Assembly: GCF_001078055.1 (NCBI RefSeq)
Contig: NZ_CP010777.1
Coordinates: forward strand, 2,192,408 to 2,256,407
Direction of reading: 5' to 3'
DNA from: Rufibacter radiotolerans
GTDB taxonomy: Bacteria > Bacteroidota > Bacteroidia > Cytophagales > Hymenobacteraceae
Length of the DNA stretch: 64,000 nt
The notes under the pieces are model-generated. The model was not told the DNA's origin and did not search any database. It was given only the letters and a program-made list of their open reading frames with translations. Of the stretch, positions 8,605 to 54,968 are shown piece after piece. The position numbers and the translations under genes were made by a program. Position 1 is the stretch's first letter, and each line of letters opens with the position of its first letter.

Positions 8605-8616
8605 ACGAGAGACGTC

Positions 8617-9267
8617 TTATTGGGCTATTACTTGCGAGGCCTTCTGCTCGCGCATACCCAGCATTAAATTCCGGCTGTAGGCCACTATGCCAAAGGCCTG
8701 CCCCAGAAAAAGCACCGGGTCTAGCCGTAAAATAGCGTACAGGATGATCATCAGACTGCCCACCAGGCTGATGACCCAGAACCCGTTAGGCAAAACGGAG
8801 GCCTGGACTTTTTCTGAGTAATACCATTGGTACACAAACCGGAGGGTGAACACCGCCTGCCCTACCCCACCCCAGGCCACCAAGGCGCCAGAAATACTGC
8901 TGTGTTCCCAGATATACCCCAGGCTATAGACATTGCCAAACAATAACCAACCAGTGGCGGCCACTGGAAAAACAAGAGAGGGCCACCGTACCCACCAGGG
9001 TAAGCTTTGCCACACATTCTTAAACCTAAGGTTCCGCAGGTAAATAAAGTAGGAAACCATCTGCCCGGCCATGATCACAATGTCGTTTCTTAACACGCCA
9101 TACAGCATCAACAGGATAGAGGCAAGCAAACTGAAGGTCCAGAACGAGGTAGGTGAAAGTACTTTCCCGGCCCGTTCAGACTGAATCCATTGCACCAGAA
9201 TTCTGGAGGAAAACAGAAGCTGCGCCAGGAGCCCCAGGCAATAGATGGCTATCTCAGACCTGTTCAT
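8617..9267 (-). CDS. tandem LAB_N (lipid-A-disaccharide-synthase N-terminal domain) membrane protein
   Basis: 216 residues made of two related halves. Half one has FSSRILVQWIQSE and SPTSFWTFSLLAS, half two has FTLRFVYQWYYSE and LPNGFWVISLVGS, so the gene arose by internal duplication of a three-helix LAB_N unit. The domain is named after LpxB N-termini, but in stand-alone proteins it is a membrane carrier-like fold of unknown activity. It overlaps the GT2 gene by 14 bases and lies 12 bases before the ArnT-like gene, which points to a role in moving or presenting the lipid-linked sugar. Confidence 0.8.
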   Translation of the reverse strand: MNRSEIAIYCLGLLAQLLFSSRILVQWIQSERAGKVLSPTSFWTFSLLASILLMLYGVLRNDIVIMAGQMVSYFIYLRNLRFKNVWQSLPWWVRWPSLVFPVAATGWLLFGNVYSLGYIWEHSSISGALVAWGGVGQAVFTLRFVYQWYYSEKVQASVLPNGFWVISLVGSLMIILYAILRLDPVLFLGQAFGIVAYSRNLMLGMREQKASQVIAQ

Positions 9268-10006
9268 GGTGTTCCTGGGGTTTATGTATTTCCTGTTGTG
9301 CTACCTGGTAGGAAATGTAGCGTTTCCGCATCCATCTAAACGCAAAGGTGTCATTCAGGGGGCCCCAGAGACGGTTAAAGAGGTGGTATTTGGCGGTGCC
9401 GGCGTACCGTTCAAAGTGCTGTACCGGCAGCTGCTTTACTTTCCCTTTCTGCAATTGGATAAGGGCCGGCAAAAACCGGTGCATGCCATCAAAGAAGGGG
9501 ATGCGCCTGGCATATTCAGCGTTCAGGATTTTAAGTGGACAGCAGGTATCCTGAATGCCATCATTGATCATGAGCCTCCTGAACTTATTGGCTACTTTGG
9601 AAGATACTTTCTTGACCAGGGTGTCCTGCCGCTTCGCCCTTATGCCGTTCACCATCTGGAAGGCAGGGAGGTATTCAAAGAACCGCAGAAAATCCATGGG
9701 CGAGGTTTGCAGGTCTGAGTCAATATACCCAATGTAAGTGCTGTCTGCCTGGTCAATGCCGGCTTTAATGGCGGTGCTCAACCCGTAGTTTTTGTCAAAG
9801 GAGAGGTAGCTATACAAGGGGTTCTCACGGCAGATCTGACTTATCATGTCAAGGCTGCCGTCAGAGGAACCGTCATCTATAAACAACACCTGCGTTGGCA
9901 TGGGCGATAGTGGTAAAAACTCCTCCATAGATTCATAGAAATGAGGAAGGCACTCTATCTCATTGTAGACAGGTACAATGATGGTTAAGGTTTGCTTGTC
10001 TTTCAT
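9254..10006 (-). CDS. GT2 glycosyltransferase, polyprenyl-phosphate sugar synthase type
   Basis: 250 residues. GT-A fold motifs are in place: IIVPVYNE near the start, FIDDGSSDGS, and the DSD metal-binding motif in GYIDSDLQTSP. It lacks C-terminal membrane helices, so it resembles the soluble DPM1 class that makes polyprenyl-phosphate-sugar. First gene of the operon with the LAB_N protein and the ArnT-like transferase, which is the expected user of its product. The long upstream gap (10007-10572) should contain its promoter. Confidence 0.85.
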   Translation of the reverse strand: MKDKQTLTIIVPVYNEIECLPHFYESMEEFLPLSPMPTQVLFIDDGSSDGSLDMISQICRENPLYSYLSFDKNYGLSTAIKAGIDQADSTYIGYIDSDLQTSPMDFLRFFEYLPAFQMVNGIRAKRQDTLVKKVSSKVANKFRRLMINDGIQDTCCPLKILNAEYARRIPFFDGMHRFLPALIQLQKGKVKQLPVQHFERYAGTAKYHLFNRLWGPLNDTFAFRWMRKRYISYQVAQQEIHKPQEHHEQV

Positions 10007-11745: not shown

Positions 11746-13047
11746 CTACATCCCGAAGGGATAGGTTTCGGGAGTGAGATGTCCGTCTGGAGAAAGGTGC
11801 AGGGGGTGGACCGCTTTGGTTTTGTCCAGGAAAAGGAAAGCATCATAGCGGCCCGACAGTTTAGTAGGCACATAATTGCCCCGGTCCCGTTCAGGTCTGT
11901 ACACGACCCCAATGGCCCGGTGCCCCATCCAGCCTTTAAAATATTCTTTCAAGGCCGGCTGCTGGTCAAAGAGCAAAAGCTTATTTTCTGGCGATGCAGC
12001 ATGCAGGATCTGCTCCACGCTTTTGGCAATAGCGGGTGGCACGGGCATTTCCTGCATGGGAGCATTCCAGCCCCGGCCGGCTATCACTTTTCCTTCATAT
12101 GACCCAAAGCCCACCAACACTACTTCTTCAAGGGCATGTTGTTCGCGCACTAGTTGCCCCACATTGATCTCTCCGCTGGCGCCCATGTCTGTAAACCGCG
12201 CATCGCCTATGTGGGTATTGTGTTCCCAGATAATTACTTTGGCCTCTGGGCCGTGGTACCGCATGAGGGTATTCAGGGCTTCCACCATGTGGGTGTCGCG
12301 CACGTTCCAGGAATTACCCCCGAAGGCGGACATGGTTCTGTAATATTTCTCTCCGTTGGCCGCTACCAGGGCATTTATCTCTGCGTTCAGACCGGCCTCT
12401 GGTGACTGGTTGTATTGGCCGGCCTTCTGCCTTACCTCCAGCAGGAGTTGCAGCACGGCCTCGCGGCAACTGGGTTTCATGGAACTCAGGCCCCTGGCAT
12501 AGGCTTCTTCTTCGCCGTAGGGCTCAAAGCAGTCAATAGCCCGGCGGGCGTATTCAGCCGCCTCAGGGTCTTCCTTTTCCAGATACTCCACTATTATTTT
12601 CAGGGAATCCCACATGCTGTACACGTCTAGCCCGTAAAAGCCAATCCGGCGGTCATGGGCCAGGGTAAGGTTGTGGTGCCGCAGCCAGTTGGCCAAGGCG
12701 GCAATTTCCCAATTAGCCCACATCCAGGTAGGCCACCGGTCAACCAGGGTTAAGACATCAGCAATGGATTCTGCCGTGTCTGGGTGGTTTTTCACCCACC
12801 GGTTAATCTCAAAACAGTCTGGCCAGTCGCCTTCCACGGCAATAAAGGAAAAGCCTTTCTCCAGGATAAGGCGCCGGGAGATTTCGCTCCGCCAGGTGTA
12901 GTATTCATGGGTGCCGTGTGAGGCCTCCCCTAGCAACACATACTTGGCATCTCCTATCCGGGCTAGCAGGGGGTCCAGGTCCTGGGCGTTCTGGAGCGGA
13001 AGGCAATATTTGGCCAGGCCGGTGGTAGAAGCAGTAGAAGTGGCCAT
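11746..13047 (-). CDS. erythromycin esterase family protein
   Basis: 433 residues, cytosolic. Conserved family motifs: LLGEASHGTHEYYTWR near residue 37, VEGDWPDCFEINRW near 70, and a WEHNTHIGDAR motif near 275. These supply the Glu and His residues used by Ere-type hydrolases (family PF05139). True Ere enzymes open macrolide lactones; most environmental members have unknown substrates, so a resistance role should not be assumed. Single gene, divergent from nothing nearby; it converges with the AI-2E gene. Confidence 0.85.
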   Translation of the reverse strand: MATSTASTTGLAKYCLPLQNAQDLDPLLARIGDAKYVLLGEASHGTHEYYTWRSEISRRLILEKGFSFIAVEGDWPDCFEINRWVKNHPDTAESIADVLTLVDRWPTWMWANWEIAALANWLRHHNLTLAHDRRIGFYGLDVYSMWDSLKIIVEYLEKEDPEAAEYARRAIDCFEPYGEEEAYARGLSSMKPSCREAVLQLLLEVRQKAGQYNQSPEAGLNAEINALVAANGEKYYRTMSAFGGNSWNVRDTHMVEALNTLMRYHGPEAKVIIWEHNTHIGDARFTDMGASGEINVGQLVREQHALEEVVLVGFGSYEGKVIAGRGWNAPMQEMPVPPAIAKSVEQILHAASPENKLLLFDQQPALKEYFKGWMGHRAIGVVYRPERDRGNYVPTKLSGRYDAFLFLDKTKAVHPLHLSPDGHLTPETYPFGM

Positions 13048-20774: not shown

Positions 20775-22037
20775 ATGGAAAGAAGTGAAGGAGCAAATTG
20801 GAGCAGTGAATTAAAGGAGCTGGGTGACAGCTCTTACCAGTTAGCCAAAGGCGAGCCAGACATTAGAGGCTGGAATATTTTTGATGGCCAGGGAAAAAGG
20901 ATAGGCGAGGTGAAAGAACTGCTCTGTGACGCCCATGCCCGCAAGGTCAGGTACCTGGTAGTAGACCTGGAAGGCAACCTCCTGGACCTAGAGCCCAGAG
21001 ACATTCTGGTTCCTATTAGCCTTGCCGAGCTCCACCCTTCTGAAAAGGCAGTGATTATTCCGCAGGTCTCATCAAGGCAATTCCAGGCTCTGCCAGCCTA
21101 TCACCGTGACCAACTCACCCCAGAAATGCAAACCCAGGTCCAGCGCATTTTCGTGGGCGACTATGTCTATCGTCCGGGAGTGGCCCAGGGTTCTGGCCTT
21201 TCTACTTCTGAAACCTACCCCCTGGACGAGACCATGAACAAGCATGCGGAGGGAGAAACCCAGCGGGCCCAGCATGTGATTGGTTTGTTCACTACCCCAC
21301 AGGAAGTAGACCGAAGGGTGCAGGCCCTGTCTAACCACGGCTTTCCGAAGGAGCAGGTGGAGGTTGCCATGCGCCAGTCCATTGACCCGCAGAGAGGGCT
21401 TTCTCCCAAGGACTTTGAAGCCTATTTCCGGCAACTGTTCTCCACGCAGGCAGAGGCGGACCAGAACTTTGAGAAATTCAGGCAAAGCAACGCGCTGGTG
21501 GTTGTGAAAGCCTACCATCTGGAGGAAGCCAACGCCGCCGCCCGTCTGTTAGATGCCTCCCGCGCCCCAGAGACAGAGATTATGGTGGAACCATTAAGGC
21601 AACCAGAACCTAATGCTGCCCCTGATATTTCTCCGGCAGACCAATACTCCACTGCTTCTACAGAAGGCCGTAGGCCTTACCAGGAGAACGAGGTGGAGAT
21701 ACGCGTCACCCACCAAAAACCTCATACTCCCCTCCCAGAAATACCTCTGAAAGAAAATAGGAGCCGCCAGGAAGAGAATACCCAACCAGAGCCCACCCAG
21801 GCTCAACCTCCAGCTGCTGAGTTTGGAAGCTTCCAGGAAGGTTCTATTGAATTGAAGGAGTTTGCAGAGATTCCTATTGTGTCAAAAGAACCACATGTAG
21901 TGGAGGAAATCAATATTGCCAAAAAGGTAGAGGAACGGGAAGAAACCGTTAGAGACTCAGTTATAAGGACGGAGATTGACATTGAGAAAATCAGGAAAGA
22001 CCCACCCCGGCAGGCTCCTCCTCCGCCCTCTTTCTAA
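20775..22037 (+). CDS. PRC-barrel / YflT-like / DUF2382 general stress protein
   Basis: 420 residues in three parts. Residues 1-100 are a PRC-barrel (GWNIFDGQGKRIGEVKELL, KVRYLVVDLEGNLLDLEPRDILVPI). Residues 165-275 resemble the heat-induced stress protein YflT fold (HVIGLFTTPQEVDRRVQALSNHGF). Residues 340-410 are DUF2382 (FQEGSIELKEFAEIPIVSKE, VEEINIAKKVEEREETV). A Pro/Glu-rich linker joins them. First gene of a stress cluster; the same domains recur at 22556, 23108 and 24841. No signal peptide, so cytosolic. A GC stem at 22049-22088 may end its transcript. Confidence 0.8.
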   Translation: MERSEGANWSSELKELGDSSYQLAKGEPDIRGWNIFDGQGKRIGEVKELLCDAHARKVRYLVVDLEGNLLDLEPRDILVPISLAELHPSEKAVIIPQVSSRQFQALPAYHRDQLTPEMQTQVQRIFVGDYVYRPGVAQGSGLSTSETYPLDETMNKHAEGETQRAQHVIGLFTTPQEVDRRVQALSNHGFPKEQVEVAMRQSIDPQRGLSPKDFEAYFRQLFSTQAEADQNFEKFRQSNALVVVKAYHLEEANAAARLLDASRAPETEIMVEPLRQPEPNAAPDISPADQYSTASTEGRRPYQENEVEIRVTHQKPHTPLPEIPLKENRSRQEENTQPEPTQAQPPAAEFGSFQEGSIELKEFAEIPIVSKEPHVVEEINIAKKVEEREETVRDSVIRTEIDIEKIRKDPPRQAPPPPSF

Positions 22038-24840: not shown

Positions 24841-25860
24841 ATGGAAAGAAACCCTAATTATAATGAATCAAACCGCCTGCAGGAGTTGGGCGGCAGTGAC
24901 TTTGAAATTGTAGACAACCAACCCAATATCAAAGGGTGGACCGTTAAAAACCAGCAAGGCCAGACCATTGGCGAAGTAGAGGAACTCATCTTTGATACCC
25001 AGGCCCGCAAGGTGCGTTACATGGTAGTAGACATTGAAGGAGACGTGTTGGACCTGGAACCACGTGATGTGCTTATCCCTATAGGGGTAGCCCAACTGCA
25101 TGAGGCAGATAATGACGTGATTTTGCCAAACGTGACCGTGGAACAACTCAGGGCTTTACCCACCTACGAATCCGGAAGCCTGGGCCGTGAGGTAGAGTCT
25201 GCCGTTTGCTCTGTGTTTGGAAGCGTTGCGGGCGCCGCCGCAAGTGCTGGTGCCGCCCTGACTGGCTCTAACCGTACCTCAGACACAGATGACTTCTATA
25301 ACCAGAAAGTTTTCTCTGACCAATCTTACCGCAACCGTGGCACTGCCACTGATTACACCTCCAATGAGTATACCTCAGAAACCACCGGTACCCGCCGTGA
25401 TGGCGACACCGTGATCCCCATCATTGAGGAGAACCTGGAAGTTGGAAAGCGTGAAGTGGAAACCGGTGGTGTGCATGTAAGTAGCAGAATGATGGAGCAG
25501 CCCGTAGAAGAGCACGTTCGCCTGAGAGAAGAACGCGTGATTGTGGAACGCAATACCGTTGACCGCCCGGCCACTGAAGCAGATTTGAACGCCTTCAAAG
25601 AAGGTGAAGTGGAACTGACTGAGCGTGCCGAGGTTCCCGTGGTAAACAAAGAAGCCCGCGTGGTGGAAGAGATTACCCTGGACAAGGAAGTGGAAGAACG
25701 CGATGAGGTAATCAGAGGCACCGTGCGCTCTACAGAGGTAGACGTGGACAATCTCAACAAAGACCGGACCCGCCTGGACAGTGACCGCACCAATGACTTA
25801 AACAAAGACAATGACCGCGACAGACTAGACCTGGACAATGACCGGACCACCAAAATCTAA
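24841..25860 (+). CDS. PRC-barrel / DUF2382 stress protein
   Basis: 339 residues. Residues 15-105 are a PRC-barrel very like that of the 20775 protein (GWTVKNQQGQTIGEVEELIF, VRYMVVDIEGDVLDLEPRDVL). An Ala/Gly-rich linker follows, then DUF2382 (IPIIEENLEVGKREVETGG, VEEHVRLREERVIVERNTVDR, FKEGEVELTERAEVPVVNKE). The Asp/Arg/Asn tail is almost identical to that of the 23108 protein, pointing to recent duplication or gene conversion. Last gene of the cluster; closed by a 20-bp perfect-stem terminator. Confidence 0.85.
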   Translation: MERNPNYNESNRLQELGGSDFEIVDNQPNIKGWTVKNQQGQTIGEVEELIFDTQARKVRYMVVDIEGDVLDLEPRDVLIPIGVAQLHEADNDVILPNVTVEQLRALPTYESGSLGREVESAVCSVFGSVAGAAASAGAALTGSNRTSDTDDFYNQKVFSDQSYRNRGTATDYTSNEYTSETTGTRRDGDTVIPIIEENLEVGKREVETGGVHVSSRMMEQPVEEHVRLREERVIVERNTVDRPATEADLNAFKEGEVELTERAEVPVVNKEARVVEEITLDKEVEERDEVIRGTVRSTEVDVDNLNKDRTRLDSDRTNDLNKDNDRDRLDLDNDRTTKI

Positions 25861-43230: not shown

Positions 43231-43983
43231 ATGGAAAAACAATTTGACAACAAGGTGGCACTCATTACCGGAGCGAGCTTCGGCATTGGCAGGTCCACCG
43301 CTCTTTTATTCGCGAAACGCGGAGCCAAAGTAGCTCTGGTAGATTGGGTGGAGAACCAGGAAACCCTGGAGAGTATCAAAGCCATGGGTGGCGAGGCCCT
43401 CTTTCTCAAGTGTGATGTCTCTAAAGCCAGCGAGGTACAAACCATGGTGGAGAAAACGGTGAGCACCTTTGGCCGCATAGATTTCGCCTTTAACAACGCG
43501 GGTATTGAAGGCCTCGGGGTACCCACCCATGAAATAACTGAAGAAAACTGGGAGAAGGTGATCAACGTGAACCTGAAGGGGGTTTGGCTCTGCATGAAAT
43601 ATGAAATCCGGCAAATGCTGACCCAAGGCAAGGGAGCCATTGTCAACAATTCCTCTATTGCCGGGATTATTGGCTTTCAGGGATTAGCCGGTTATACCGC
43701 CTCCAAGCACGGGGTGATTGGCCTTACCAAAACCGCCGCCCTGGAATATGCCCGCCAGGGAATACGGGTCAATGCCGTGTGCCCGGGCGTGATCCAGACG
43801 CCCATGGTTGACCGGTTTATAAAAGACGACGCTACCCGGCAGGCGATGACCAATTCAGAGCCTATAGGCCGGTTTGGCGCCCCGGAAGAAATAGCCGAAG
43901 CCGCCATTTGGCTTTGTTCTGATGCCGCTTCCTTTACCACGGGCCATTCCCTTGTGGTTGATGGTGGCTGGGTGGCCCAGTAA
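43231..43983 (+). CDS. SDR-family oxidoreductase
   Basis: 250 residues from ATG 43231. Classical SDR motifs: cofactor loop [14 protein letters not shown], and the catalytic set Ser ([10 protein letters not shown]), Tyr-Lys (YTASK), plus the PGVIQTPM adenine-pocket ending. It is closest to glucose 1-dehydrogenase/3-oxoacyl-ACP-reductase-like enzymes. First gene of the operon; the acyl-CoA synthetase gene begins 30 bases later. With an acyl carrier protein at the end of the operon, a 3-oxoacyl-ACP or aldehyde/alcohol substrate is possible. Confidence 0.8.
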
Positions 43984-44012
43984 TAAAAGCAACACACTCA
44001 AAAGCTAAATGT

Positions 44013-45731
44013 ATGGCTGTTGCTCCCAACTTAGAAGATTATGCTACTTTCTCCGCTGGCTTCAGTTGGGAAAAGGAACGGACCGGCCTTACGGGGTTAC
44101 CCAACGGGCAGGGGCTTAACATAGGCTTTGAGGCCATTGACCGCCATGCCAACGGTCCGCTGCGCGACCAAACTGCCCTGCGTTGGGTCAAGAAAGACCA
44201 CTCCACCATGGACTGCTCTTACCAGGATATGAAGGAGCTTACCAATCGTTTTGCCAATGTGTTAACCGCTCTGGGCCTGCAAAAGGGAGACCGGGTGTTT
44301 TCCTTCCTGGGCCGGGTGCCAGAGCTTTATGTCAGTGCCCTGGGTACCCTTAAGAAAGTAGCGGTCTTCTGCCCCTTGTTCAATGTGTTCGGCCCGGAAC
44401 CCGTGTTCCAGCGCCTTAGCCGCGGCGATGCCCTGGTGCTGGTCACCACGCAGGACCAGTTTGAGAAGAAGATACGGCAATTGCTAGACCGCCTGCCGCA
44501 GTTACGCTACATCCTCCTCACAGACGCCGCAGCCCATGAGAACGACCAAGTCCGGTCCCTACCCCGCCTCATGGAAGAGGCCTCCCCTGAGTTCAACATT
44601 CCGCCTGCTGATGCTGAAGACCCCGCCCTGCTGCATTTTACCAGCGGCACCACTGGCCTGCCCAAAGGCGCCTTGCACGTGCACAAAGCCGTCTTGGTGC
44701 ACTACGTGACAGGCAAATACGTGCTGGACTTCCACCCCGGTGACATCTACTGGTGCACGGCAGATCCCGGTTGGGTGACCGGTACCACTTATGGCATCAT
44801 TGCGCCCCTGGTTAACGGAGTTACCAACATAGTAGACGAGAAAGAGTTTGATGCTACCCGTTGGTATTCCATTTTGCAGGACCAAAAGGTAAACATCTGG
44901 TACACTGCTCCCACTGGCATCCGGCGTTTGATGCGCATGAACATAAAGCCCCGTGAGGAATACCACCTGGAGCATCTGCGCCTCATGTTAAGCGTGGGAG
45001 AACCCCTGCACGCTGAGGCGGTGATCTGGGGCGAGAAGACCTTTGGCATGCCTTTCCTGGATAACTGGTGGCAGACCGAGACCGGAGGCATCATGATCGC
45101 TAATTACCGGTCTATGCCTGTAAGGCCTGGGTCCATGGGCAAACCCTTGCCTGGCGTAGAAGCAGCCGTAGCCCAAGTAACCGATGACAGTTTCCAGCTT
45201 CTTACCGAGCCCGGCAAAGACGGGCACCTAGTTCTGAAGCGGGGCTGGCCCTCTATGTTCCGCACCTACCTGCATGACGAGGAACGCTACCAGAAATGCT
45301 TCCGGGGAGACTGGTACCTGACCGGGGACTTGGCAAAAAAAGATGCAGACGGCTACTATTGGTTTATCGGCCGCGCCGATGATATCATCAAGACCTCCGG
45401 GCACATGGTGGGTCCGTTTGAGGTAGAAAGTGCCTTGATGGAGCATCCGGCGGTAGCCGAGGCAGCCGTGATAGGGAAACCAGACGCCCTTATTGGGGAA
45501 CTGGTGAAAGCCTTTGTGGTGCTCAAGCCAGACTATACCCCAGATGACGCCCTTAAAATGGATATTACCGCCCATGCCCGCCGGAAACTAGGCCCCGCCG
45601 TGGCGCCCAAGGAAATAGCCTTCATAGACACGCTGCCCAAAACCCGAAGCGGTAAAATTTTGCGTCGGCTGCTTAAAGCCCGGGAACTGGGCCTTCCGGA
45701 AGGCGACCTCTCCACGCTGGAGCAATCTTAA
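44013..45731 (+). CDS. acsA: acetyl-/acyl-CoA synthetase (ANL family)
   Basis: 572 residues, shorter than the 650 of typical Acs. Adenylation motifs are complete: [14 protein letters not shown] (A3), NWWQTETGG (A5), [18 protein letters not shown] (A7), [20 protein letters not shown] (A8) and [10 protein letters not shown] with the A10 lysine. It is a cytosolic acetate- or short-acyl-CoA ligase. Second gene of the SDR-E1-E2-ACP operon, just 18 bases before E1alpha. Supplying acyl groups to or from the 2-oxoacid dehydrogenase is inferred. Confidence 0.85.
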
Positions 45732-45749
45732 GTTGTAAGGACTCAGACC

Positions 45750-46754
45750 ATGGCACAAGACCCCACTTCCGCAACCGCCCCTTTTCTGCCGCCCAAAGAG
45801 CAGGCGCAGAAGCTGCTGTACCAGATGATTTTGATTCGAAGGTTTGAGGAAAAGGCCGCTGAGATGTATACCAAAACCAAGATCAGGGGTTTCCTGCATC
45901 TCTACATTGGCGAGGAAGCCGTAGCCGTAGGGGTGCTGCAGGCACTTACCCCTGAAGATAATGTGCTTTGCACCTACCGGGAGCATGGCCATGCCCTGGT
46001 GCGGGGCCTGGAACCCGGTGCCATTATGGCCGAAATGTACGGGAAGCAGGAAGGGTGCAGCAAAGGCAGAGGCGGCTCTATGCACCTGTTCAATGCGAAG
46101 GCAAAGTTCTACGGAGGAAACGCCATTGTGGCAGGCCACCTGGCCCTGGCAGTTGGGCTGGCGCTGGCCGATAAAAAAAGAAAACGCCCCCAAATCACCT
46201 GCTGCTTTTTTGGGGAAGGCGCCATGGCCGAAGGGGCTTTCCATGAGGCTATGAACCTGGCAGCCCTGTGGCAGGTGCCGGTGCTCTTTGTCTGCGAGAA
46301 CAACCTGTACGCCATGGGCACCGCCCTGCGCTACACCCACGCCATGACAGAACTGGAGAAGAAAGGAGCTGCCTATGACATCACTTCCGCCGCGGTAGAC
46401 GGCATGGATTTACCAGCCGTCATGCAGGCTGCCACTGCCGCCGCCCAAACCGTGCGCGAAACCGGCAAGCCTTTTTTCCTGGTCTGCAACACCTACCGCT
46501 TTAGGGCGCACTCTATGTTTGACGCCGAGCTTTACCGTGAAAAAAGCGAGGTTGACCAATGGAAACTGCGGGACCCTATCCAGGCTTATTCCAACCTGCT
46601 CCTGCAACAACAATTGGTTTCAGAACCAGAACTGGCAACCATGGAAACCCAGATTGACCAGGAAATTCAGGGAGCCGTTGACTTTGCCGAAGCCTGCAGT
46701 TGGGAACCCCTTGAAGAACTCACCAGATACACCTACAGTGAAAGAACCCCCTGA
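45750..46754 (+). CDS. pdhA: 2-oxoacid dehydrogenase E1 alpha subunit
   Basis: 334 residues. ThDP-binding motif FFGEGAMAEGAFHEAMNLAALW...VCENN is present, but the metal-binding Asp of GDG is a Glu (GEG) here. Upstream HLYIGEEAVAVGV and YREHGHALVRG match pyruvate/acetoin dehydrogenase E1 alpha; the loop RGGSMHLFNAKAKFYGG is also typical. Substrate (pyruvate, acetoin or branched-chain) cannot be fixed. The gene ends 3 bases before E1 beta. Note that no E3 (lipoamide dehydrogenase) gene is in the operon. Confidence 0.85.
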   Translation: MAQDPTSATAPFLPPKEQAQKLLYQMILIRRFEEKAAEMYTKTKIRGFLHLYIGEEAVAVGVLQALTPEDNVLCTYREHGHALVRGLEPGAIMAEMYGKQEGCSKGRGGSMHLFNAKAKFYGGNAIVAGHLALAVGLALADKKRKRPQITCCFFGEGAMAEGAFHEAMNLAALWQVPVLFVCENNLYAMGTALRYTHAMTELEKKGAAYDITSAAVDGMDLPAVMQAATAAAQTVRETGKPFFLVCNTYRFRAHSMFDAELYREKSEVDQWKLRDPIQAYSNLLLQQQLVSEPELATMETQIDQEIQGAVDFAEACSWEPLEELTRYTYSERTP

Positions 46755-46757
46755 CCC

Positions 46758-47744
46758 ATGGAAACCCCGCTCCTCACTTACCGCGAATGCCTGAAGCAGT
46801 CTATAAGGGAAGCCTTGCTTTCTGACGATCGGGTGTTTCTGATGGGCGAAGACGTGGGGCATTACGGCGGAGCCTTTGCCGTGAGCAAGAACCTGCTGCA
46901 GGAATTTGGGCCGGAGCGTATCATGGATACCCCCTTGTCCGAAGGAGGATTTGTAGGAGCAGGCATTGGCGCCGCGTTAGGGGGCATGCGGCCCATAGTA
47001 GAGATCATGACCGTTAATTTCAGCTTGCTGGCCCTGGACCAGATTGCCAATAACGCAGCTACTCTGCTTCACATGAGTGGCGGCCAACTCAATGTGCCCT
47101 TGGTGATCAGGATGAGTACTGGTATTGGTCGCCAGCTGGCCGCCCAGCACTCGCACAGCTGGGAACCGCTGTTTGCCCATATCCCGGGCTTACGGGTACT
47201 GTCTGCCGGCACCCATGAAGACGCCCGCTACATGCTTGCACCGGCGTTACTAGACCCAGACCCCATCATCATCTTTGAATACACCTCCATGCTAAACCTG
47301 GAGAGAGAGCTACCCTCCAATTCGGGTCCAGTAGACATCACCAAGGCTAAAATAAGACACCCCGGAAACGACATCTCCATTATCACCTACGGCACAGGCG
47401 TGTACAAAGCCCTGGAGGCTGTTCCGCTATTAGCACAGGCGGGAATTGACGCCGAGGTGCTAGATTTAAGGATTCTACGCCCATTGGATGAGGAGACGAT
47501 AGTGGCTTCCGTGGCCAAAACCCATAGAGCCCTGCTGGTGGAAGACGCCAGCAGATCGGTGAGCATTTCCTCTGAGGTAAGTACCCGAATCATGGAAAAG
47601 GCCTTTTATGAATTAGACGCACCCGTTCAGCGGCTATGCGGAGTAGAAGTTCCTATACCCTACCCCAAACACCTGGAAGACGCCGCCGTTCCGCAAACTG
47701 ACCAGATTGTTTCTACCATAAAAAAAATGCTGCAACATGATTGA
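46758..47744 (+). CDS. pdhB: 2-oxoacid dehydrogenase E1 beta subunit
   Basis: 328 residues. Family landmarks: [12 protein letters not shown] (ThDP glutamate), [20 protein letters not shown], and [20 protein letters not shown], followed by the C-terminal transketolase domain with [13 protein letters not shown] and [16 protein letters not shown]. With E1 alpha it makes the alpha2beta2 decarboxylase. Its stop overlaps the E2 start by 8 bases, so translation is coupled. Confidence 0.9.
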
Positions 47745-49044
47745 ATACCGGATGCCCAGCCTGGGGGCTGATATGGAAAGTGGCTTTCTGCGTGAATGGC
47801 ACGTGCGGCCCGGGGATAAGATCAAGAAAGGAGACATTATTGCGGAGGTAGAGACCCAGAAAGGAATCATAGAAATAGAAGTGTTTGATGAAGGTACAAT
47901 TGGGGAATTGTTGGTTCAGGTTGATGAGAAAGTTCCAGTGGGTATGCTCATGGCCACCATTATGCCTCCGGGAGAAGAGAAAGCGGGTCCGGTTGCAGCG
48001 CCAGCACCAACAGCGGCAGCGGCAGAGAGCCCGGTAGCAGCTATGCCTGGCCCTCCGCCAGCGGTGGAGAAAGCCGCCCTACCGGAGAACCATATTCGGG
48101 CTTCTCCCCTGGCCAAAAGGATTGCCGAAGAAAAAGGAATAGACCTGGCCACCGTAAAGGGCACCGGCCCAGAGGGAGCTATCACCCGCGACGATGTGGA
48201 ACACGCCCTGGCCGCCCAGGTGGCCCCACCGGTTTCACCATCTCAAAAGGAAGCAGCCTTGCCTACCCATCCATCAGAAGCACAGGCCGCGGCTCCCATT
48301 CCTCAGGCAGCAGTTCAACCCCTAGAGCAAATTACCATGCAACCCGGAGAAGTTGCTCCTAAACCGGCAGGTCCCGGATTTTCCCCGGAAACCATCCGGA
48401 TGGCTGTGGCAGCCGCCATGAGCAAGTCTAACCGCGAAGTGCCGCATTACTACTTGGAGACGAAAATTGACATGAGCAAAGCGCTGGCCTGGCTCACGGA
48501 GGCCAACAAACAGCGCCCCGTCAAAGAGCGCCTTTTACCCGCGGTCCTTCTTTTGAAAGCGGTGGCCAAGGCGCTCAATGACGTGCCGGACCTGAATGCC
48601 TGGTGGGAAAACGGGCTGCAGCGCAAAAACAGCATCAATATTGGGTATGTGGTTTCGCTGCGTACGGGCGGCATTATTGTCCCGGCCATTCATGAGGCAG
48701 ATTCTAAAACGGTAGACGAGCTGATGTTTGCCTTGAACGACTTAATTCCCAGGGCGCGGGCCTTACGCTTGCGCAGCTCTGAACTAGCTGACTCCACCAT
48801 TACCGTTACCAGCCTGGGAGAAGGCGCCGTGGAAACCGTCTATGGCGTTATTTACCCGCCACAGGTGGCCTTGGTAGGCTTCGGGGGAATTACTCCCCAA
48901 CCCTGGACCGAGAATGGCATGCTGGACGTACGCCCGGTTCTTACCGCCACCTTGGCCGCTGATCACCGGGCCTCTGACGGCAGCACCGGAAGCCGTTTTC
49001 TGACCGCCATCAAACAATACCTTCAAGAACCCGAGAAATTATGA
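47737..49044 (+). CDS. pdhC: dihydrolipoamide acyltransferase E2
   Basis: 435 residues in three parts. One lipoyl domain (residues 1-78) with the lipoyl-lysine Lys42 in [12 protein letters not shown]; an Ala/Pro linker; a peripheral subunit-binding domain (about 122-160, [17 protein letters not shown]); another long linker; and the acyltransferase core from about 210. The active-site His410 and Asp414 are in [13 protein letters not shown]. The core is complete. It overlaps the ACP start by 4 bases. Confidence 0.9.
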
Positions 49045-49295
49045 CAGAAGCAGAAATAAAACAGACCCTGGTCCTACGGCTTAAAACTATTGCCCCCGAT
49101 ACAGAACCTGGCCAACTTCAGCCAAATGACAATATCCGGCAAACGCTGGGCATCGATTCCTATGATTACCTGCAGTTCATAGTGGCCCTGGATGAGGAAT
49201 TTGGTCTGCAGACGCCCGAGGAGGATTACGGGAAAATTCAGACTATGAAGGAGTTGGTGAGGTATATTCAGGGACACGCGAAGGCTAAGACATAA
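49041..49295 (+). CDS. acyl carrier protein
   Basis: 84 residues. The phosphopantetheine serine is Ser40 in LGIDSYDYLQF, followed by helix II and a typical acidic ALDEEFGLQTPEED helix III. The usual DSL is DSY here. It overlaps the E2 stop by 4 bases (ATGA), so it is translated with E2. A carrier protein tied to E2 suggests the acyl group leaves the lipoamide for ACP instead of, or as well as, CoA. Last gene of the operon. Confidence 0.85.
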   Translation: MTEAEIKQTLVLRLKTIAPDTEPGQLQPNDNIRQTLGIDSYDYLQFIVALDEEFGLQTPEEDYGKIQTMKELVRYIQGHAKAKT

Positions 49296-49616: not shown

Positions 49617-49660
49617 TGATCCCATTTGGATTCGAACCAAAGACCTACTGCTTAGAAGGC
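49617..49660 (-). other. attachment site: 3' half of tRNA-Arg(UCU)
   Basis: On the minus strand this reads from the anticodon loop (GCCTTCTAAGCAGT, anticodon TCT) through the variable loop, T stem (TTTGG / CCAAA around loop TTCGAAT) and acceptor strand TGGGATC plus A. Everything before position 32 is missing: the adjoining sequence does not pair with the 3' anticodon stem. This is the typical displaced 3' end left by integration into a tRNA gene, so the intact tRNA should lie at the far end of the element. Confidence 0.8.
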
Positions 49661-49809: not shown

Positions 49810-51102
49810 ATGGCATCAGCAAGTGTATCTATTGTTCAAGACACTAGAAGGGCAAAGAAGGACGGAAAATTCCCGGTTAAAATCAGGGTCATATATAACC
49901 GGAAGGCAAAGGATTTTCCCACAAGACACAGCTTGACTGCCGATGATTTCGGGAAGGCCCTGAGTGCCAAGCCGGGCAAGAAGTTGGAAGAGACAGGAAT
50001 TGAGCTTAACGCACTCAAGGGTAAGGCGCTGGGGATAATAGAAACTCTTTCTGTATTCTCCTTTGAGGCCTTCACCAAGAGATTCCGTGACAACCTAGCC
50101 AAGGACGATGTGTTTGACGCATTTGTCGCCAAGGTCAGCTTATTTATGGCGGAGGGTCAGGTAGGTACCGCCAAGAACTATGAGACAGCCCTCGTCTCCC
50201 TCCTCTCCTTTATGAAGCAAAAGCCTTCATCAAGCGGCAAGGGGATGAGCTTGGAGAAGATCAAGGCCGACAGGGCCGCTATCATCGCCGAAAGGAAACC
50301 TATGGCCTTCTCAGAGGTGACGCCCGATTTCCTCAGAAGGTATGATAAATGGATGGTTCAAAACGGAAAGTCCGCCACAACCGTGAGCATGTACCTTCGC
50401 ACGCTCAGGACTCTCTTCAACGAGGCGATGGCCGAGGGGAATGTTCACCCAGACCTATATCCCTTCGGAAAGCGGAAATACCAGGTGCCGGCCAGCAGAA
50501 ACATAAAGAAGGCCCTGTCCAAGCATGATTTGAAGAAGATCTTCGAATATCAGCCCAAGTCGGACAGCGAGGCGAGGGCTAGGGACTACTGGTGGTTCTC
50601 CTATCTGTGCAACGGCATCAACATGAAGGACATCGCCAGGCTCAAATACCGGCAGGTCGGAAAAGACTCCATCACCTTCGTAAGGGCAAAGACGGAGAGG
50701 ACCACCCGGCATGACCAGAGAGCCATTACCGTGGAGATTGAGCCTGAGGTCGCTGAGATCATCCGGCGGTGGGGCAACAAGCCCTCTCTCCCCGACGCCT
50801 ACGTGTTCCCGATCCTCACCGCAGGCATAACCCCGGAACGGGAGAAGGCGGCGGTCAACCAGGCAACCAAAACGACCAACAAGTACATGAAGCGGATCGC
50901 CGTGGAACTGGGTATAGAAGCGAACGTCACCACATACGCGGCCAGGCACTCCTTCTCCACGGGCATGATGAGAGCCGGTGCCCCTACGGGAATGATATCT
51001 GAACTCTTGGGCCACTCCTCTGAGAAGACGACGCAGAACTACCTGGCCGGCTTTGAGGACGACGAGAAGCGGCAGTTTAAGAGGCGCCTGATGGACTTCT
51101 AA
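49810..51102 (+). CDS. int: tyrosine recombinase integrase, Bacteroidota type
   Basis: 430 residues. N-terminal arm-binding domain (residues 1-80), a SAM-like core-binding domain (100-215, NYETALVSLLSFMKQ and FSEVTPDFLRRYDKWM), then the catalytic domain. Arg379 and His380 (YAARHSF), His402 (LGHSS) and the nucleophile Tyr411 (QNY) are present, with a Lys in AKTERTT. The first catalytic arginine is not present; the region reads YLCNGINMKDIARL, as in CTnDOT-type integrases. It lies 150 bases from the attachment site. Confidence 0.9.
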   Translation: MASASVSIVQDTRRAKKDGKFPVKIRVIYNRKAKDFPTRHSLTADDFGKALSAKPGKKLEETGIELNALKGKALGIIETLSVFSFEAFTKRFRDNLAKDDVFDAFVAKVSLFMAEGQVGTAKNYETALVSLLSFMKQKPSSSGKGMSLEKIKADRAAIIAERKPMAFSEVTPDFLRRYDKWMVQNGKSATTVSMYLRTLRTLFNEAMAEGNVHPDLYPFGKRKYQVPASRNIKKALSKHDLKKIFEYQPKSDSEARARDYWWFSYLCNGINMKDIARLKYRQVGKDSITFVRAKTERTTRHDQRAITVEIEPEVAEIIRRWGNKPSLPDAYVFPILTAGITPEREKAAVNQATKTTNKYMKRIAVELGIEANVTTYAARHSFSTGMMRAGAPTGMISELLGHSSEKTTQNYLAGFEDDEKRQFKRRLMDF

Positions 51103-51148
51103 CCTATCAGCGCAACAAAATCCAAGGAAAACCCATAATAGGGTAATT

Positions 51149-52150
51149 ATGGACGAGCAAGACGACTGGGAGGTAAATGACGATTACGATCCGCAGGACT
51201 GGGAGGACGAACCCATTCTAAATCATGACTATTATGTCAGGAAGTTCACCTCTTTGGTCTACCATCACCCGTTTTTCACCTATCACTCTGTACCCCCTGA
51301 CAAGTACAGGTCCGTTCCTTCCTTCTCTGAGCAGAATCCCTTCTCGATACCTCTCTTTACAATGGAAAGCAAGGAGTGGGGCCAGACGGGGATATACCCG
51401 AGCGACTTCAACGAGAAATCGGTGCAGGGAGGGTTCTGTTTTTATATCCAAAGGCATGACCATGCGGAGATTGCCGAATTCCTGGATTACCAGTTTGCCT
51501 CATATGTGGAGAGAGCGGCCCCTAAAGAGGATGCGACTGCTTTCCTGGACTACCTTATTACTACCATAGAGACATTCGGGGAAGCCTCTAGGTATGACAT
51601 GTGGCGCGACACAGACTTCCATAGCCTACGCGCCGTGGGTAGTTGGGTAAGGTCGCACAGAGGGTACATTGATGCATTCGAGCAAAGACTATGGGACTGG
51701 GTAAACCTAAACCGCGACTTCGGGGAAATGGCTAAAAAAGAAAATGCTAAGCGGAAAAAAGAAAAGACTGAGGAGAAGTATTTAGCCAATCCAGATATAA
51801 AGAAGGCAGATGAGGAGGATGCGGCCCTAGAGAGGATCTATGCCAAGAAACCAGAACAGGCGATCTTAGCCCTTTGTTTCTTGTATCTCCAAGATGCAGG
51901 GTATGTTCCTTTTTTTCAAAACCATGAAGGTGGAAAATTGAAGGCCATAGCGGAGGTGGTTAGCAGAAGCCACCTAAAGAGTGTCAAGTCATTTCAAAAC
52001 CACTACAATTTCATTAATAATAATGAAAGAAGAATTACACTCTCAAATATACCAAACCTTAAAAAGGTGATGGCACTTCTAGTAGAGTTCCCCAAGGCTC
52101 AGAGACTAGTTGAGACTGAGATAAAGGCCGCTGATTTGGGTAGGGCCTAA
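51149..52150 (+). CDS. hypothetical protein of the integrative element
   Basis: 333 residues; no family recognised. The N-terminal 30 residues are very acidic (DEQDDWEVNDDYDPQDWEDE). The middle has aromatic-rich stretches (HHPFFTYHSVPPDKYRSV) and a lysine-rich helix (KKENAKRKKEKTEEKY); the C-terminal third is helical. The gene lies between integrase and excisionase genes, 46 bases after the integrase, a position often held by accessory genes of Bacteroidota elements. Start is ATG 51149. Confidence 0.6.
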   Translation: MDEQDDWEVNDDYDPQDWEDEPILNHDYYVRKFTSLVYHHPFFTYHSVPPDKYRSVPSFSEQNPFSIPLFTMESKEWGQTGIYPSDFNEKSVQGGFCFYIQRHDHAEIAEFLDYQFASYVERAAPKEDATAFLDYLITTIETFGEASRYDMWRDTDFHSLRAVGSWVRSHRGYIDAFEQRLWDWVNLNRDFGEMAKKENAKRKKEKTEEKYLANPDIKKADEEDAALERIYAKKPEQAILALCFLYLQDAGYVPFFQNHEGGKLKAIAEVVSRSHLKSVKSFQNHYNFINNNERRITLSNIPNLKKVMALLVEFPKAQRLVETEIKAADLGRA

Positions 52151-52230
52151 CGTCAGGCCTTACCTAGGGTAAGCTCCAGCTGTATTTTGGACATTTGTAT
52201 ATCATTAACAATTAACCCAAAATAGAGAGA

Positions 52231-52554
52231 ATGGACAACCCATTTATTAAAATCGATGAGAGGCTCAGCGGCCTAGAGAAGATAGCGCTGGAGCTGTACA
52301 ACATTTATCAGGCCAAGGCAAAAAATAGTGCCGAGTCTGATAAACCACTTAACGCCATGGAGGCCGCTGAGTTCCTCGGCATTCCCAAGAACACCTTATA
52401 TGCGCTCACGAGCCGAAGGGAGATTACACACTGTAAGAGAGGGAAGCAACTTTTCTTTCAAAAGAAGGACTTGTTAGATTGGCTAGAGGCAGGGCGGCAG
52501 AGAACAGTTGCCGAAATTCAGTTGGATACAAGAAAGGGGGTGCGCCGTGCATAG
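52231..52554 (+). CDS. excisionase-type helix-turn-helix protein
   Basis: 107 residues. A MerR-like/excisionase (HTH_17) domain spans about residues 40-85: PLNAMEAAEFLGIPKNTLYAL, TSRREITHCKRGKQLFFQKKDLLDWLE. This shape is typical of excision-control and regulatory proteins of conjugative and mobilizable elements. The end overlaps the start of the DUF3987 gene by 8 bases. Placement between integrase and primase genes matches the usual module order. Confidence 0.8.
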   Translation: MDNPFIKIDERLSGLEKIALELYNIYQAKAKNSAESDKPLNAMEAAEFLGIPKNTLYALTSRREITHCKRGKQLFFQKKDLLDWLEAGRQRTVAEIQLDTRKGVRRA

Positions 52555-53899
52555 TGCCTTCAACCTGCGGGAGTACCTTTCCGCCACCTCTTCCCAAGAG
52601 ACCCTGGAGTTCCCGCTCCTGGCGTTCCCGGCCCCCATCAGGCGCATCATCGAGGCCACCAGGGACAGCCTGCTCTACCCGGTGGATTTCATGGGTTCCG
52701 CCATCCTGGTCGCTATCAGCGTCGCGGTCGGCAATGCCCTCAAGGTGCAGGTGAAGCGGGCCTGGCAGGAGGGCTGCACCCTCTTCATGGCGCTGGTGGG
52801 AAGGCCCGGCACCGCCAAGAGCCACCCGCTCTCCTTCGCGCTCGCCCCCTTCTTCAAACGGGACAGGGCGCTATACCAGGAATACCGGGAGGAGATGGAG
52901 GAATACAAGGCAGCGTTGGCCCTCCACAAGAAGATTAAGGACGGCAGCCCTCCCCCGGAGAAGCCGGTGATACGCAAGAGCCTGGTCCAGGACAGCACGC
53001 CGGAGGCCCTGCTGGAGATCCACCAGCGCAATCCCCGGGGCCTGGGCCTGTACATGGACGAGCTGATGGGCTTCCTCAACAACTTCAACCGCTACAGCCA
53101 GGGCAGCGAGCAGGAGACCTGGCTCACGGTCTGGAGCGGCAAGCCCCTGATCCAGGACCGCAAGTCCGGGGAGCCCCTCAACATCATGGACCCCAGCGTC
53201 TCCGTGGTGGGCACGATCCAGAACGGGCTTCTGGGGCAACTCGCCCAGGGGAACCGCAGCGTGAACGGCTTCATGGACCGCATCCTTTTCGCCTTCCCGC
53301 CTAACCTGGTGAAGGAATATTGGTCACAGACGGAGATCGACCCCATGGTGGCCGTGGACTGGGAGAGGTACATTGGTAACCTGTTCGACATTTCCTTGGA
53401 GGTTAGGGAGGACGGAAGCCTTGAGCCCAGGGTTGTCCAGTTCTCCCCCGGGGCGCGGGCCCTCCTCTCGGAGTGGCAGGTCCACAACACGGACCTTATC
53501 AACAATGCCCCCACCGAATCCCTAGGGGGCCTTTATGTCAAATTGGAGACTTACTGCATCCGGCTTAGCCTGGTCTTGCAGGCCGCCATGTGGGCCACAG
53601 GCGAGTGGGACCGAGACGCTGTCAGTGAGGAGGCAGTCCAGGGGTCCATAATGCTCACGGAGTATTACCGCCGCACTGGGACTATGGTCAACGATACCAT
53701 CAACAGCTACAGTCCCCTGGAGAACTTGCGGGAGGACCGGCGCGCCTTCTATGAGTCCCTGCCGGTGGAGTTCTCCACCAAGGAAGCCAAGGCCATCGCA
53801 TCGGGTCAGGGGATTGCCCACAGGACGCTCCATGAGATACTGAAGGACAAGACCCTGTTCATGCACCTAAGGCACGGTAAATATCAGAAACTCATCTAG
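52547..53899 (+). CDS. DUF3987 helicase/primase-like protein
   Basis: 450 residues from a GTG at 52547, which has a good AAGGGGG site about 9 bases upstream and overlaps the excisionase stop; a TTG at 52508 is the alternative. Walker A GRPGTAKSHP near residue 87 and a Walker B-like LYMDELMGFL near 170, both in the DUF3987 domain found in replication genes of mobile elements. It probably acts as an ATP-dependent replication protein together with the following primase-like gene. A GC-rich, different codon use from the neighbours is visible. Confidence 0.8.
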   Translation: MHSAFNLREYLSATSSQETLEFPLLAFPAPIRRIIEATRDSLLYPVDFMGSAILVAISVAVGNALKVQVKRAWQEGCTLFMALVGRPGTAKSHPLSFALAPFFKRDRALYQEYREEMEEYKAALALHKKIKDGSPPPEKPVIRKSLVQDSTPEALLEIHQRNPRGLGLYMDELMGFLNNFNRYSQGSEQETWLTVWSGKPLIQDRKSGEPLNIMDPSVSVVGTIQNGLLGQLAQGNRSVNGFMDRILFAFPPNLVKEYWSQTEIDPMVAVDWERYIGNLFDISLEVREDGSLEPRVVQFSPGARALLSEWQVHNTDLINNAPTESLGGLYVKLETYCIRLSLVLQAAMWATGEWDRDAVSEEAVQGSIMLTEYYRRTGTMVNDTINSYSPLENLREDRRAFYESLPVEFSTKEAKAIASGQGIAHRTLHEILKDKTLFMHLRHGKYQKLI

Positions 53900-53907
53900 C
53901 AACTGGC

Positions 53908-53981
53908 TGCACTTCCCGCACTTTATGCACTTCCCCTCCCGCTAGAGGTTATGAAGTGCGGATAGTGCGGATAGTGCGGCA
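53908..53981. repeat. iteron-like array, three inverted plus three direct 9-bp units
   Basis: Left set (53908-53934): TGCACTTCC, CGCACTTTA, TGCACTTCC. Right set (53953-53979): GAAGTGCGG, ATAGTGCGG, ATAGTGCGG. All share an AAGTGC/TAGTGC core at 9-bp spacing, with the left set inverted relative to the right. It lies between the helicase-like and primase-like genes and is a candidate replication origin or regulatory site. Confidence 0.6.
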
Positions 53982-53996
53982 CAACTCAAGAAGAAG

Positions 53997-54968
53997 ATGA
54001 GCGACTATGCATTTAACCTGCAGAGATACGGCGGGCCCAAGACCCGTTTCGACTGCCCAGGGTGCGGGAAGAGGCAATGCTTCACCCGCTACGTTGACAA
54101 CGCCACCGGTGAGCCGGTAGGCCCTTCGGTGGGCAGGTGTAACCGGGAGACCAGTTGCGGCTACCACCTGAAGCCCGGGGAATACTTCAAGGCGCAGGGT
54201 ATCCCTTATATACCCAATCCGAGGCCAATTCCTAAGAAGGAGAAGCCCAATCCAGCCTCCTATATCCGTCCCTCCCTGCTAGAGAGTAGCAGGAAGGCAT
54301 TCCAGAGGAATAACTTAGCCGTCTTCCTTACCGGGCTGCTTGGGAAAGTGAAGGCGAGGGAACTGATCGATAGGTATTTGGTCGGTACCTCAAAATACTG
54401 GCCCGGGGCCACGGTGTTCTGGCAGGTGGACAGCGAAAACAACATCCGGACCGGCAAGATCATGCTCTACGACCCAGTGACAGGTAGGCGCGTAAAGGAG
54501 CCGGTGAGCAGAATCCACTGGGCGCACCGCTTCTCAAACGACCCCCACTTCTGCCTCAGCCAGTGCCTCTTCGGGGAGCACCTGCTCAGGCTGGAGCCAG
54601 AAAAGCCGGTGGCCATCGTGGAGAGCGAGAAGACGGCCATCATCGCCAGCGCCTTCTACCCGCAGTATCTCTGGCTGGCCTGCGGGGGTATTTCCCAGCT
54701 CAGCCTAGATAGGTGCCTGCCCCTGAGGGGAAGGGATGTAACACTCATCCCTGATGTCGATGCCCTCCAGGCCTGGCAGGACAGGGCAAGGAGACTGGAG
54801 GATGGGCTGCTCCAAAGGATAAAGGTGACAGAAGTATTGAAAGGAATGGCTTCGGAGGGGGAAATGGAGGCGGGCTGGGACATAGCGGATTTCCTGGTGG
54901 AAGGAAGGATTGGAATGATTGAATCCGCAAGTATGTCAGAACCAAGGAATGCAACGCCAAGTTCCTGA
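53997..54968 (+). CDS. primase-like protein with zinc finger and Toprim domain
   Basis: 323 residues. A zinc-binding N-terminus (CPGCGKRQCF, then GRCNRETSCGYH) is like that of DUF6371 primases of Bacteroidota elements. A Toprim core follows: VAIVESEKTAIIAS (catalytic Glu) and TLIPDVDALQAW (Asp motif). The ending is abrupt: after ADFLVEGRIGMIES the frame shifts away from a coding-looking sequence that continues in another frame to 55063. Start ATG 53997 at the end of the iteron array. Confidence 0.8.
   Translation: MSDYAFNLQRYGGPKTRFDCPGCGKRQCFTRYVDNATGEPVGPSVGRCNRETSCGYHLKPGEYFKAQGIPYIPNPRPIPKKEKPNPASYIRPSLLESSRKAFQRNNLAVFLTGLLGKVKARELIDRYLVGTSKYWPGATVFWQVDSENNIRTGKIMLYDPVTGRRVKEPVSRIHWAHRFSNDPHFCLSQCLFGEHLLRLEPEKPVAIVESEKTAIIASAFYPQYLWLACGGISQLSLDRCLPLRGRDVTLIPDVDALQAWQDRARRLEDGLLQRIKVTEVLKGMASEGEMEAGWDIADFLVEGRIGMIESASMSEPRNATPSS

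Follow-up and report, generated by a model that had tools for sequence, protein, structure and literature searches.

A dehydrogenase operon with its own acyl carrier protein

We analysed a 64,000-nucleotide stretch of the Rufibacter radiotolerans genome (NZ_CP010777.1, positions 2,192,408 to 2,256,407; hereafter the window), which carries an operon encoding a short-chain dehydrogenase/reductase (SDR), an AMP-forming acetate--CoA ligase, the E1α and E1β subunits of a 2-oxoacid dehydrogenase, a dihydrolipoamide acyltransferase (E2) and an acyl carrier protein (ACP) (Table 1). A preliminary description of this DNA had recognised six adjacent genes with short gaps or overlaps, an ATGA shared by the E2 stop and the ACP start, intact ACP serine (GIDSYDY), E2 lipoyl-lysine (ETQKG) and E2 core (HRASDG) motifs, and an operon without a gene for the lipoamide-reoxidising E3. 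All of this holds. The genes lie on the forward strand at the coordinates it had given, separated in order by gaps of 29, 18 and 3 nt and then by overlaps of 8 and 4 nt, and the core motif reads DHRASDG. No E3 gene was found within the operon, and two E3 genes above the TIGR01350 cut-off sit elsewhere in the 4.82 Mb genome.

Table 1. Features of the operon in the window, and two divergent E2 genes from plasmid loci
Feature	Coordinates	Strand	Evidence
SDR oxidoreductase, PRK06172 family; accessory, outside the conserved five	43231..43983	+	PRK06172 360 bits, cut-off 336
AMP-forming acetate--CoA ligase, PRK04319 family, module gene 1; candidate acetyl-ACP ligase	44013..45731	+	NF003313 886 bits, cut-off 729
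E1α, thiamine-diphosphate 2-oxoacid dehydrogenase, module gene 2	45750..46754	+	TIGR03182 435 bits, cut-off 394; motif YRFRAHSMFD
E1β, module gene 3	46758..47744	+	NF006667 368 bits, cut-off 321
E2 dihydrolipoamide acyltransferase, module gene 4	47737..49044	+	lipoyl, E3-binding and catalytic Pfam domains
Lipoyl-lysine motif ETQKG, E2 residues 39-43	47851..47865	+	Lys42 = lipoylation site by homology
Acyl carrier protein (ACP), module gene 5	49041..49295	+	PF00550 32 bits, cut-off 20.8
ATGA overlap, E2 stop/ACP start	49041..49044	+	sequence; kept across phyla
E2 without second catalytic Asp, Leisingera/Sinorhizobium	L130 13992-15152; L131 12001-13158		

We placed the start of the SDR at its ATG (43231); the open reading frame (ORF) tool instead opens this frame at TTG 43222. 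The closest solved relative of the ligase is 9g79 (545 bits). Within E2, the lipoyl, E3-binding and catalytic domains span residues 5-75, 120-155 and 219-435, respectively. No NCBIfam E2 model scored above its cut-off on this protein, the best being TIGR01349 (244 bits against a cut-off of 445), and the acetoin E2 model NF011457 reached 76 bits, below its cut-off of 307. The ACP is predicted to be helical, with four helices (mean pLDDT 90), and Ser40 within GIDSYDY is its phosphopantetheine attachment site by homology.

A five-gene module across phyla

Relatives were collected with a scan of named genomes based on an E2 alignment, which matched at least 593 stretches, at least 556 of them encoding a relative. 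The best 80 loci were kept, picked by E2 alone, with farther relatives falling outside them. In 65 of these 80 loci the ligase, E1α, E1β, E2 and ACP genes stand on one strand and in this order. The five-gene module is real and widespread and, because the arrangement recurs across phyla, its presence in the window is not due to chance. By record title, the loci come from Bacteroidota, deltaproteobacterial groups, Nitrospira, Chloroflexi, Verrucomicrobia, Betaproteobacteria, Actinomycetes and their relatives, Acidobacteria, Trueperaceae and others. Many derive from metagenome-assembled genomes, in which misbinning is possible; isolates or complete genomes with the module include Flavobacterium, Niastella, Algoriphagus, Desulforhabdus, Desulfoprunum, Candidatus Nitrospira defluvii and Kitasatospora.

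Contig ends account for 12 of the 15 incomplete loci. The contig runs out upstream in 11 (L049, L053, L057, L068, L080, L085, L093, L094, L108, L114 and L117), with L057 having 311 nt before E1α and no ligase match there, and L099 is cut downstream, with no ACP seen. In L121 E1α was not recognised and the contig runs out before the ligase. A Flavobacterium locus (L089, Flavobacterium sp. AED, 7847-9293) holds E2 and a piece of E1β without an ACP and is likely a remnant of the module. A ligase-E1α fusion suggested by L087 was rejected: the ligase end partly matches another frame (a 57-aa ORF at 2161-2334), and a frame-break artefact probably explains the long reading frame. In 16 of the 65 complete loci, module genes stand more than 200 nt apart, with other ORFs in most of these gaps.

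The SDR is an accessory gene and not a member of the unit. Ten of the 80 loci, all of them from Bacteroidota, have it in the 1 kb preceding the ligase, so the role first given to it, reducing a product, is not general. With ten further loci added (n = 90), no E3 match was found in any locus using the genome's own E3 as query (E 1e-5), and no constant neighbour beyond the five genes emerged, either from these loci or from 120 flanking proteins of 28 non-Bacteroidota loci. Eighteen records of a phage collection match the E2, with at most 31% identity among the ten matches listed. Individual loci have particular genes at the ACP end: a second PF00550 gene directly 3' of the module ACP in a Desulfobacterales record (L101, 9598-9873), a lipoyl-protein-ligase-family gene right after it (L081, 9559-10254), and an RlaP-type (RNA repair) gene overlapping its end in two Nitrospira loci (L100, 9427-10107; L116, 9424-10104).

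Coupling of E2 to ACP and conserved residues

We examined the E2-ACP junction in the 90 loci, taking in each the ACP-frame start closest to -4. An ACP was found in 88, and its start codon lies exactly -4 nt from the E2 stop in 81. Across phyla the ACP thus goes with the operon of this E2 and is neither solitary nor set among unrelated genes. Because the loci were picked by E2 alone, this coupling was not built into the sample. Other spacings occur in L046, L063, L071, L093, L098 and L107; the ACP is cut by the contig end in L052 and missing from L089 and L099. Frames that had been labelled 'ACPfusion?' are taken as ORFs with an upstream start, because they overlap E2. Among eight plasmid loci, seven have an annotated 4-nt E2/ACP overlap and the Rhodococcus copy has a 9-nt gap.

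The motifs around the cofactor sites are conserved. Asp39-Ser40-x-Asp42 and Glu60-x-Asp62-Tyr63 of the ACP, and Lys42, His410 and Asp414 of E2, are kept in at least 95% of rows. The E2 motif DHR[AV][ST]DG is found in 89 of 91 aligned sequences (the exceptions are one gap and one DHRAIDG), and the position of Ala412 is occupied by Val in 24 of 25 other E2s. Against these 25, the module E2s form one clade (support 0.967). The E1α motif YRFRAHSMFD is present in 56 of 80 rows. The ligase motif WWQTETG is present in all 66 rows that have residues there (68 rows in all); in solved acetyl-CoA synthetases the second Trp restricts the pocket to acetate and propionate. Ligase differences were also compared with just four short stand-alone relatives, and no claim was drawn from them.

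Co-variation of the five proteins

Protein distances were compared across 61 modules using Spearman correlation and a permutation control. All ten protein pairs correlate at 0.69-0.87, with a highest permutation value of 0.19. This shows genes travelling together and is no proof of contact. The ACP correlates with the ligase at 0.806, E1α at 0.772, E1β at 0.712 and the E2 core at 0.700, and with the lipoyl and E3-binding domains of E2 at 0.629 and 0.570. The lead of the ligase over the E2 core is upheld by bootstrap (difference 0.06-0.17). With 100 variable columns drawn at random for each protein, the mean correlations keep this order (ligase 0.746, E1α 0.717, E1β 0.671, E2 core 0.645). Among the 34 Bacteroidota alone, the values are 0.656 for the ligase, 0.612 for E1α, 0.558 for E1β and 0.616 for the E2 core; among the 27 non-Bacteroidota they are 0.698, 0.535, 0.417 and 0.616, respectively. 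The co-variation is a modest pointer to contact between ligase and ACP, and it speaks against E2 as the sole partner of the ACP.

Plasmid islands and upstream sites

In a plasmid collection 593 records matched; 40 were listed and eight opened, and all eight carry the module. Within flanks of 12-14 kb, six of the eight encode Usp, five Hsp20 and all eight one or the other (raw counts, without a large-plasmid control), and genes such as those for phosphoenolpyruvate (PEP) synthase, nitroreductase or nicotinate phosphoribosyltransferase also accompany plasmid copies of the module. The opened plasmid copies sit in stress-type islands. Fifteen of the 90 loci have PEP-synthase-like neighbours; this cluster was named from its first residues, and genes annotated ppsA are present beside two plasmid copies. 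Acetate kinase, phosphate acetyltransferase and FabI are encoded near the Sulfitobacter copy, a pair of AMP-binding genes (591 and 939 aa) lies immediately upstream of the Cupriavidus copy, and the Rhodococcus copy has a ketoacyl-ACP-synthase-III-like gene ~8 kb away. In two Roseobacter-group plasmids a single gene of ~666 aa annotated pdhA replaces E1α and E1β (L130, 11993-13990; L132, 12001-14004); judged by length and position, it is probably an E1α-E1β fusion.

A perfect TTGA-N6-TCAA (FNR-like) site lies upstream of the ligase in four of ten proteobacterial loci, compared with an average of 0.31 when windows are drawn at random from these loci (P 0.0002, a test made once the matches were known). 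Sites with one mismatch occur in several Bacteroidota loci, in part within the coding start. In the Streptomyces copy there are two distinct OsdR-like boxes, GGGGCCGTCAGGCCCC and GGGGCCGTCCGGCCCT, with three pattern matches against 0.21 expected (P 0.0018); they resemble OsdR sites in the literature, which include AGGGCCGTCCGGCCCC. Neighbours and upstream sites suggest low-oxygen expression of the module in some hosts; in the window, the 20 proteins scanned and the 249 nt upstream give no such sign.

Proposed function and alternatives

In the family chemistry, as given in the parts of the literature consulted, E1 decarboxylates a 2-oxoacid and acylates a lipoyl group, E2 gives the acyl group to a thiol, and E3 reoxidises the lipoyl group. 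We propose, with a probability of about one half, that the E1 and E2 of the module move pyruvate-derived acetyl to the module's own holo-ACP, and that the ligase exchanges acetyl between this ACP and acetate plus AMP. E1 would decarboxylate pyruvate, the substrate indicated by its family and motif, and acetylate the lipoyl group of E2. E2 would then pass the acetyl group to holo-ACP in place of CoA, the ACP presumably having been phosphopantetheinylated by a host enzyme, and a host E3 docked on the E3-binding domain would reoxidise the lipoyl group. The ligase would act on the ACP-bound acetyl. Running towards acetate, the module would give NADH and ATP from pyruvate without CoA; in the opposite direction the ACP would be charged from acetate. 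E2 and ligase are proposed to share the ACP because both handle the same C2 thioester and the ACP, once modified, is the encoded thiol carrier. The synthetase had earlier been taken to load acyl-CoA. It belongs to the acetate--CoA ligase family, with WWQTETG in every row that has residues there, and it may act on the ACP itself, because the ACP co-varies more with the ligase than with E2.

Several observations weigh against this proposal. CoA may be the acyl partner of E2 or of the ligase. Both the ligase and E1α track the ACP more closely than E2 does, and the lead of the ligase over E1α is not upheld by bootstrap (-0.01 to 0.09). E. coli E2p uses Ser551, His603 and Asp607 in catalysis and admits CoA from the inner side of its core; module E2s differ from other E2s at some positions (for example, Ala227 against Arg), and these differences could not be linked to the CoA pocket, few CoA contacts being named in the literature consulted. 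The alphaproteobacterial E2s of Leisingera and Sinorhizobium lack the second catalytic Asp (DHRVSGG and DHRVSHG). The stress context is weak outside plasmids, where Usp, the commonest Pfam family, accounts for 6 of the 120 flanking proteins (top 25 of 151 families). A perfect FNR-like site occurs in 1 of 63 non-proteobacterial loci, some with less than 400 nt upstream, and OsdR-like boxes are absent from four of five actinobacterial loci. The window itself has no Usp or Hsp20 among 20 proteins scanned and no perfect FNR-like site in the 249 nt upstream.

The complex could instead make acetyl-CoA as any pyruvate dehydrogenase does, with the ACP serving as acceptor or donor for the ligase only (an acetyl-ACP ligase) or as an adaptor of the complex. 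The E1 and E2 families and the E3-binding domain are indeed like those of pyruvate dehydrogenase, and it is the ligase with which the ACP co-varies most. However, the overlap joins E2, not the ligase, to the ACP in 81 of 90 loci, with the ligase the farthest of the five genes, and three other E2 cores are already available in the genome; we consider this explanation rather unlikely. Mitochondrial ACP carries octanoate for transfer to lipoyl-lysine, and the module ACP might similarly bring octanoate to the lipoyl lysine of the module E2. Mitochondrial ACPs are among the solved relatives of this ACP, and in L081 a lipoyl-protein-ligase-family gene directly follows it. Yet such a gene is one of ten ACP-proximal proteins scanned, the three other E2s of the genome have no PF00550 gene nearby, and a role in lipoylation would leave the ligase, with its acetate-ligase motif, unexplained, all of which makes it improbable.

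We give an equally small chance to a biosynthetic loading module like those of the Qnc and Scl systems, which would hand glycolyl or acetyl on the ACP to an assembly line. Its parts (E1, E2 and ACP) are those described for SclQ1-4 and QncLMN in the portions of the source consulted, and the Cupriavidus AMP-binding genes and the Rhodococcus ketoacyl-ACP-synthase-III-like gene would suit such a role. Against it, the module has no constant assembly-line neighbour, Usp being the commonest family among the 120 flanking proteins, and the ligase lacks a counterpart among the C2-unit genes in the Scl table.

The textbook product of pyruvate dehydrogenase is acetyl-CoA. If ACP-directed transfer is correct, central metabolism would have a second acetyl carrier by way of a widespread, patchy and often plasmid-borne variant of this enzyme, and placement in stress islands would tie the module to survival without oxygen. 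A wider possibility, which we hold only tentatively and consider doubtful, is a CoA-free acetyl economy in dormant or oxygen-starved bacteria of many phyla, in which pyruvate is oxidised onto a dedicated ACP and an acetyl-ACP ligase forms acetate and ATP beside the CoA pool. In the eight annotated plasmid copies opened, the genes carry ordinary names (acsA, pdhA, acyl carrier protein), which makes the module easy to overlook; consisting of five genes, it lends itself to direct testing.

Comparison with known systems

There is precedent for loading by E1, E2 and ACP, the transfer that the preliminary description had suggested for this operon. Quinocarcin loading has reportedly been treated by Peng et al. 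SclQ1-4 (scleric acid) and QncN/QncL/QncM (quinocarcin) are reported or proposed to load C2 units in this way, according to the parts consulted of PMC6335953. The same parts state that deletion of sclQ1-4 left residual product and that feeding glycolic acid restored product (PMC6335953); loading in Scl was thus proposed from homology and not isolated there. Like these systems, likened here by their described parts and not by sequence, the module encodes a thiamine-diphosphate E1, a lipoyl E2 and a small ACP together. Unlike the module, they supply a peptide assembly line, with the C2 unit proposed in the sections consulted to come from a ketose phosphate, whereas the module has an acetate ligase, a pyruvate-dehydrogenase-type E1, hosts in many phyla and no constant assembly-line neighbour; no assembly-line (non-ribosomal peptide synthetase) genes were found among the 20 window proteins scanned. 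Literature searches on the module, its setting and precedents, whose coverage excluded most subscription papers, gave no description of the module in its ligase-containing, stress-island form among the titles and abstracts listed.

With the pyruvate dehydrogenase complex the module shares E1α/E1β, the lipoyl, E3-binding and catalytic domains of E2 and the D-H-R...D-G motif; it differs in its operon without E3, its own ACP and ligase, the DHR[AV][ST]DG signature and the separate E2 clade. Acetoin dehydrogenase (aco) is a second E1αβ-E2 operon alongside housekeeping complexes, and the module resembles it in that respect, but its E2 falls below the acetoin model cut-off, the operon has no E3, and the ACP and ligase are present. 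The plasmid copies with Usp, Hsp20 and other such genes, and the Streptomyces copy with its OsdR-like boxes, are reminiscent of OsdR/DosR (DevR) dormancy islands, unlike the scanned neighbours in the window, which are of other kinds; the main text of the OsdR paper contains neither 'acyl carrier' nor 'acetyl-CoA'. Acs1 of Syntrophus aciditrophicus, in the parts of the report consulted, is an AMP-forming acetyl-CoA synthetase run toward ATP (PMC4992975). The module ligase, likewise an AMP-forming acetate ligase, could run toward acetate and ATP, its proposed thioester partner being the ACP and not acetyl-CoA as for Acs1.

The module in the window's lineage

Beyond the operon, the Rufibacter genome encodes three more E2 cores. 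It also has three other PF00550 places, and none of these lies near those E2s. A search of 200 genomes of the family, its own included, returned operon-type E2s (72-80% identity) in seven others, which all belong to a single different genus. Fifteen genomes of its own genus were among those listed, and none of them has one. The remaining 55 matches, at 34-38% identity, are taken as ordinary E2s. Across 395 genomes of the phylum, four have an E2 match at E 1e-66, the window counted in. Because occurrence in family and phylum is so patchy, the window's lineage probably acquired the module. Named relatives of the ACP and E2 include Pontibacter, Botryobacter and Adhaeribacter.

From about 500 bp past the ACP stop, the window encodes a tyrosine integrase (49810-51102) with DUF3987 and DUF6371 proteins (49810-54968), probably an integrated mobile element adjoining the operon. 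ARAGORN reports no tRNA from 49300 on, a tRNA-like 3' part is visible by eye near 49620-49660, and no direct repeats of at least 20 bases were found beside the integrase. On the other side, ~17-32 kb upstream of the operon, lie an erythromycin-esterase family gene and two PRC-barrel/DUF2382 genes (11746-13047; 20775-22037; 24841-25860).

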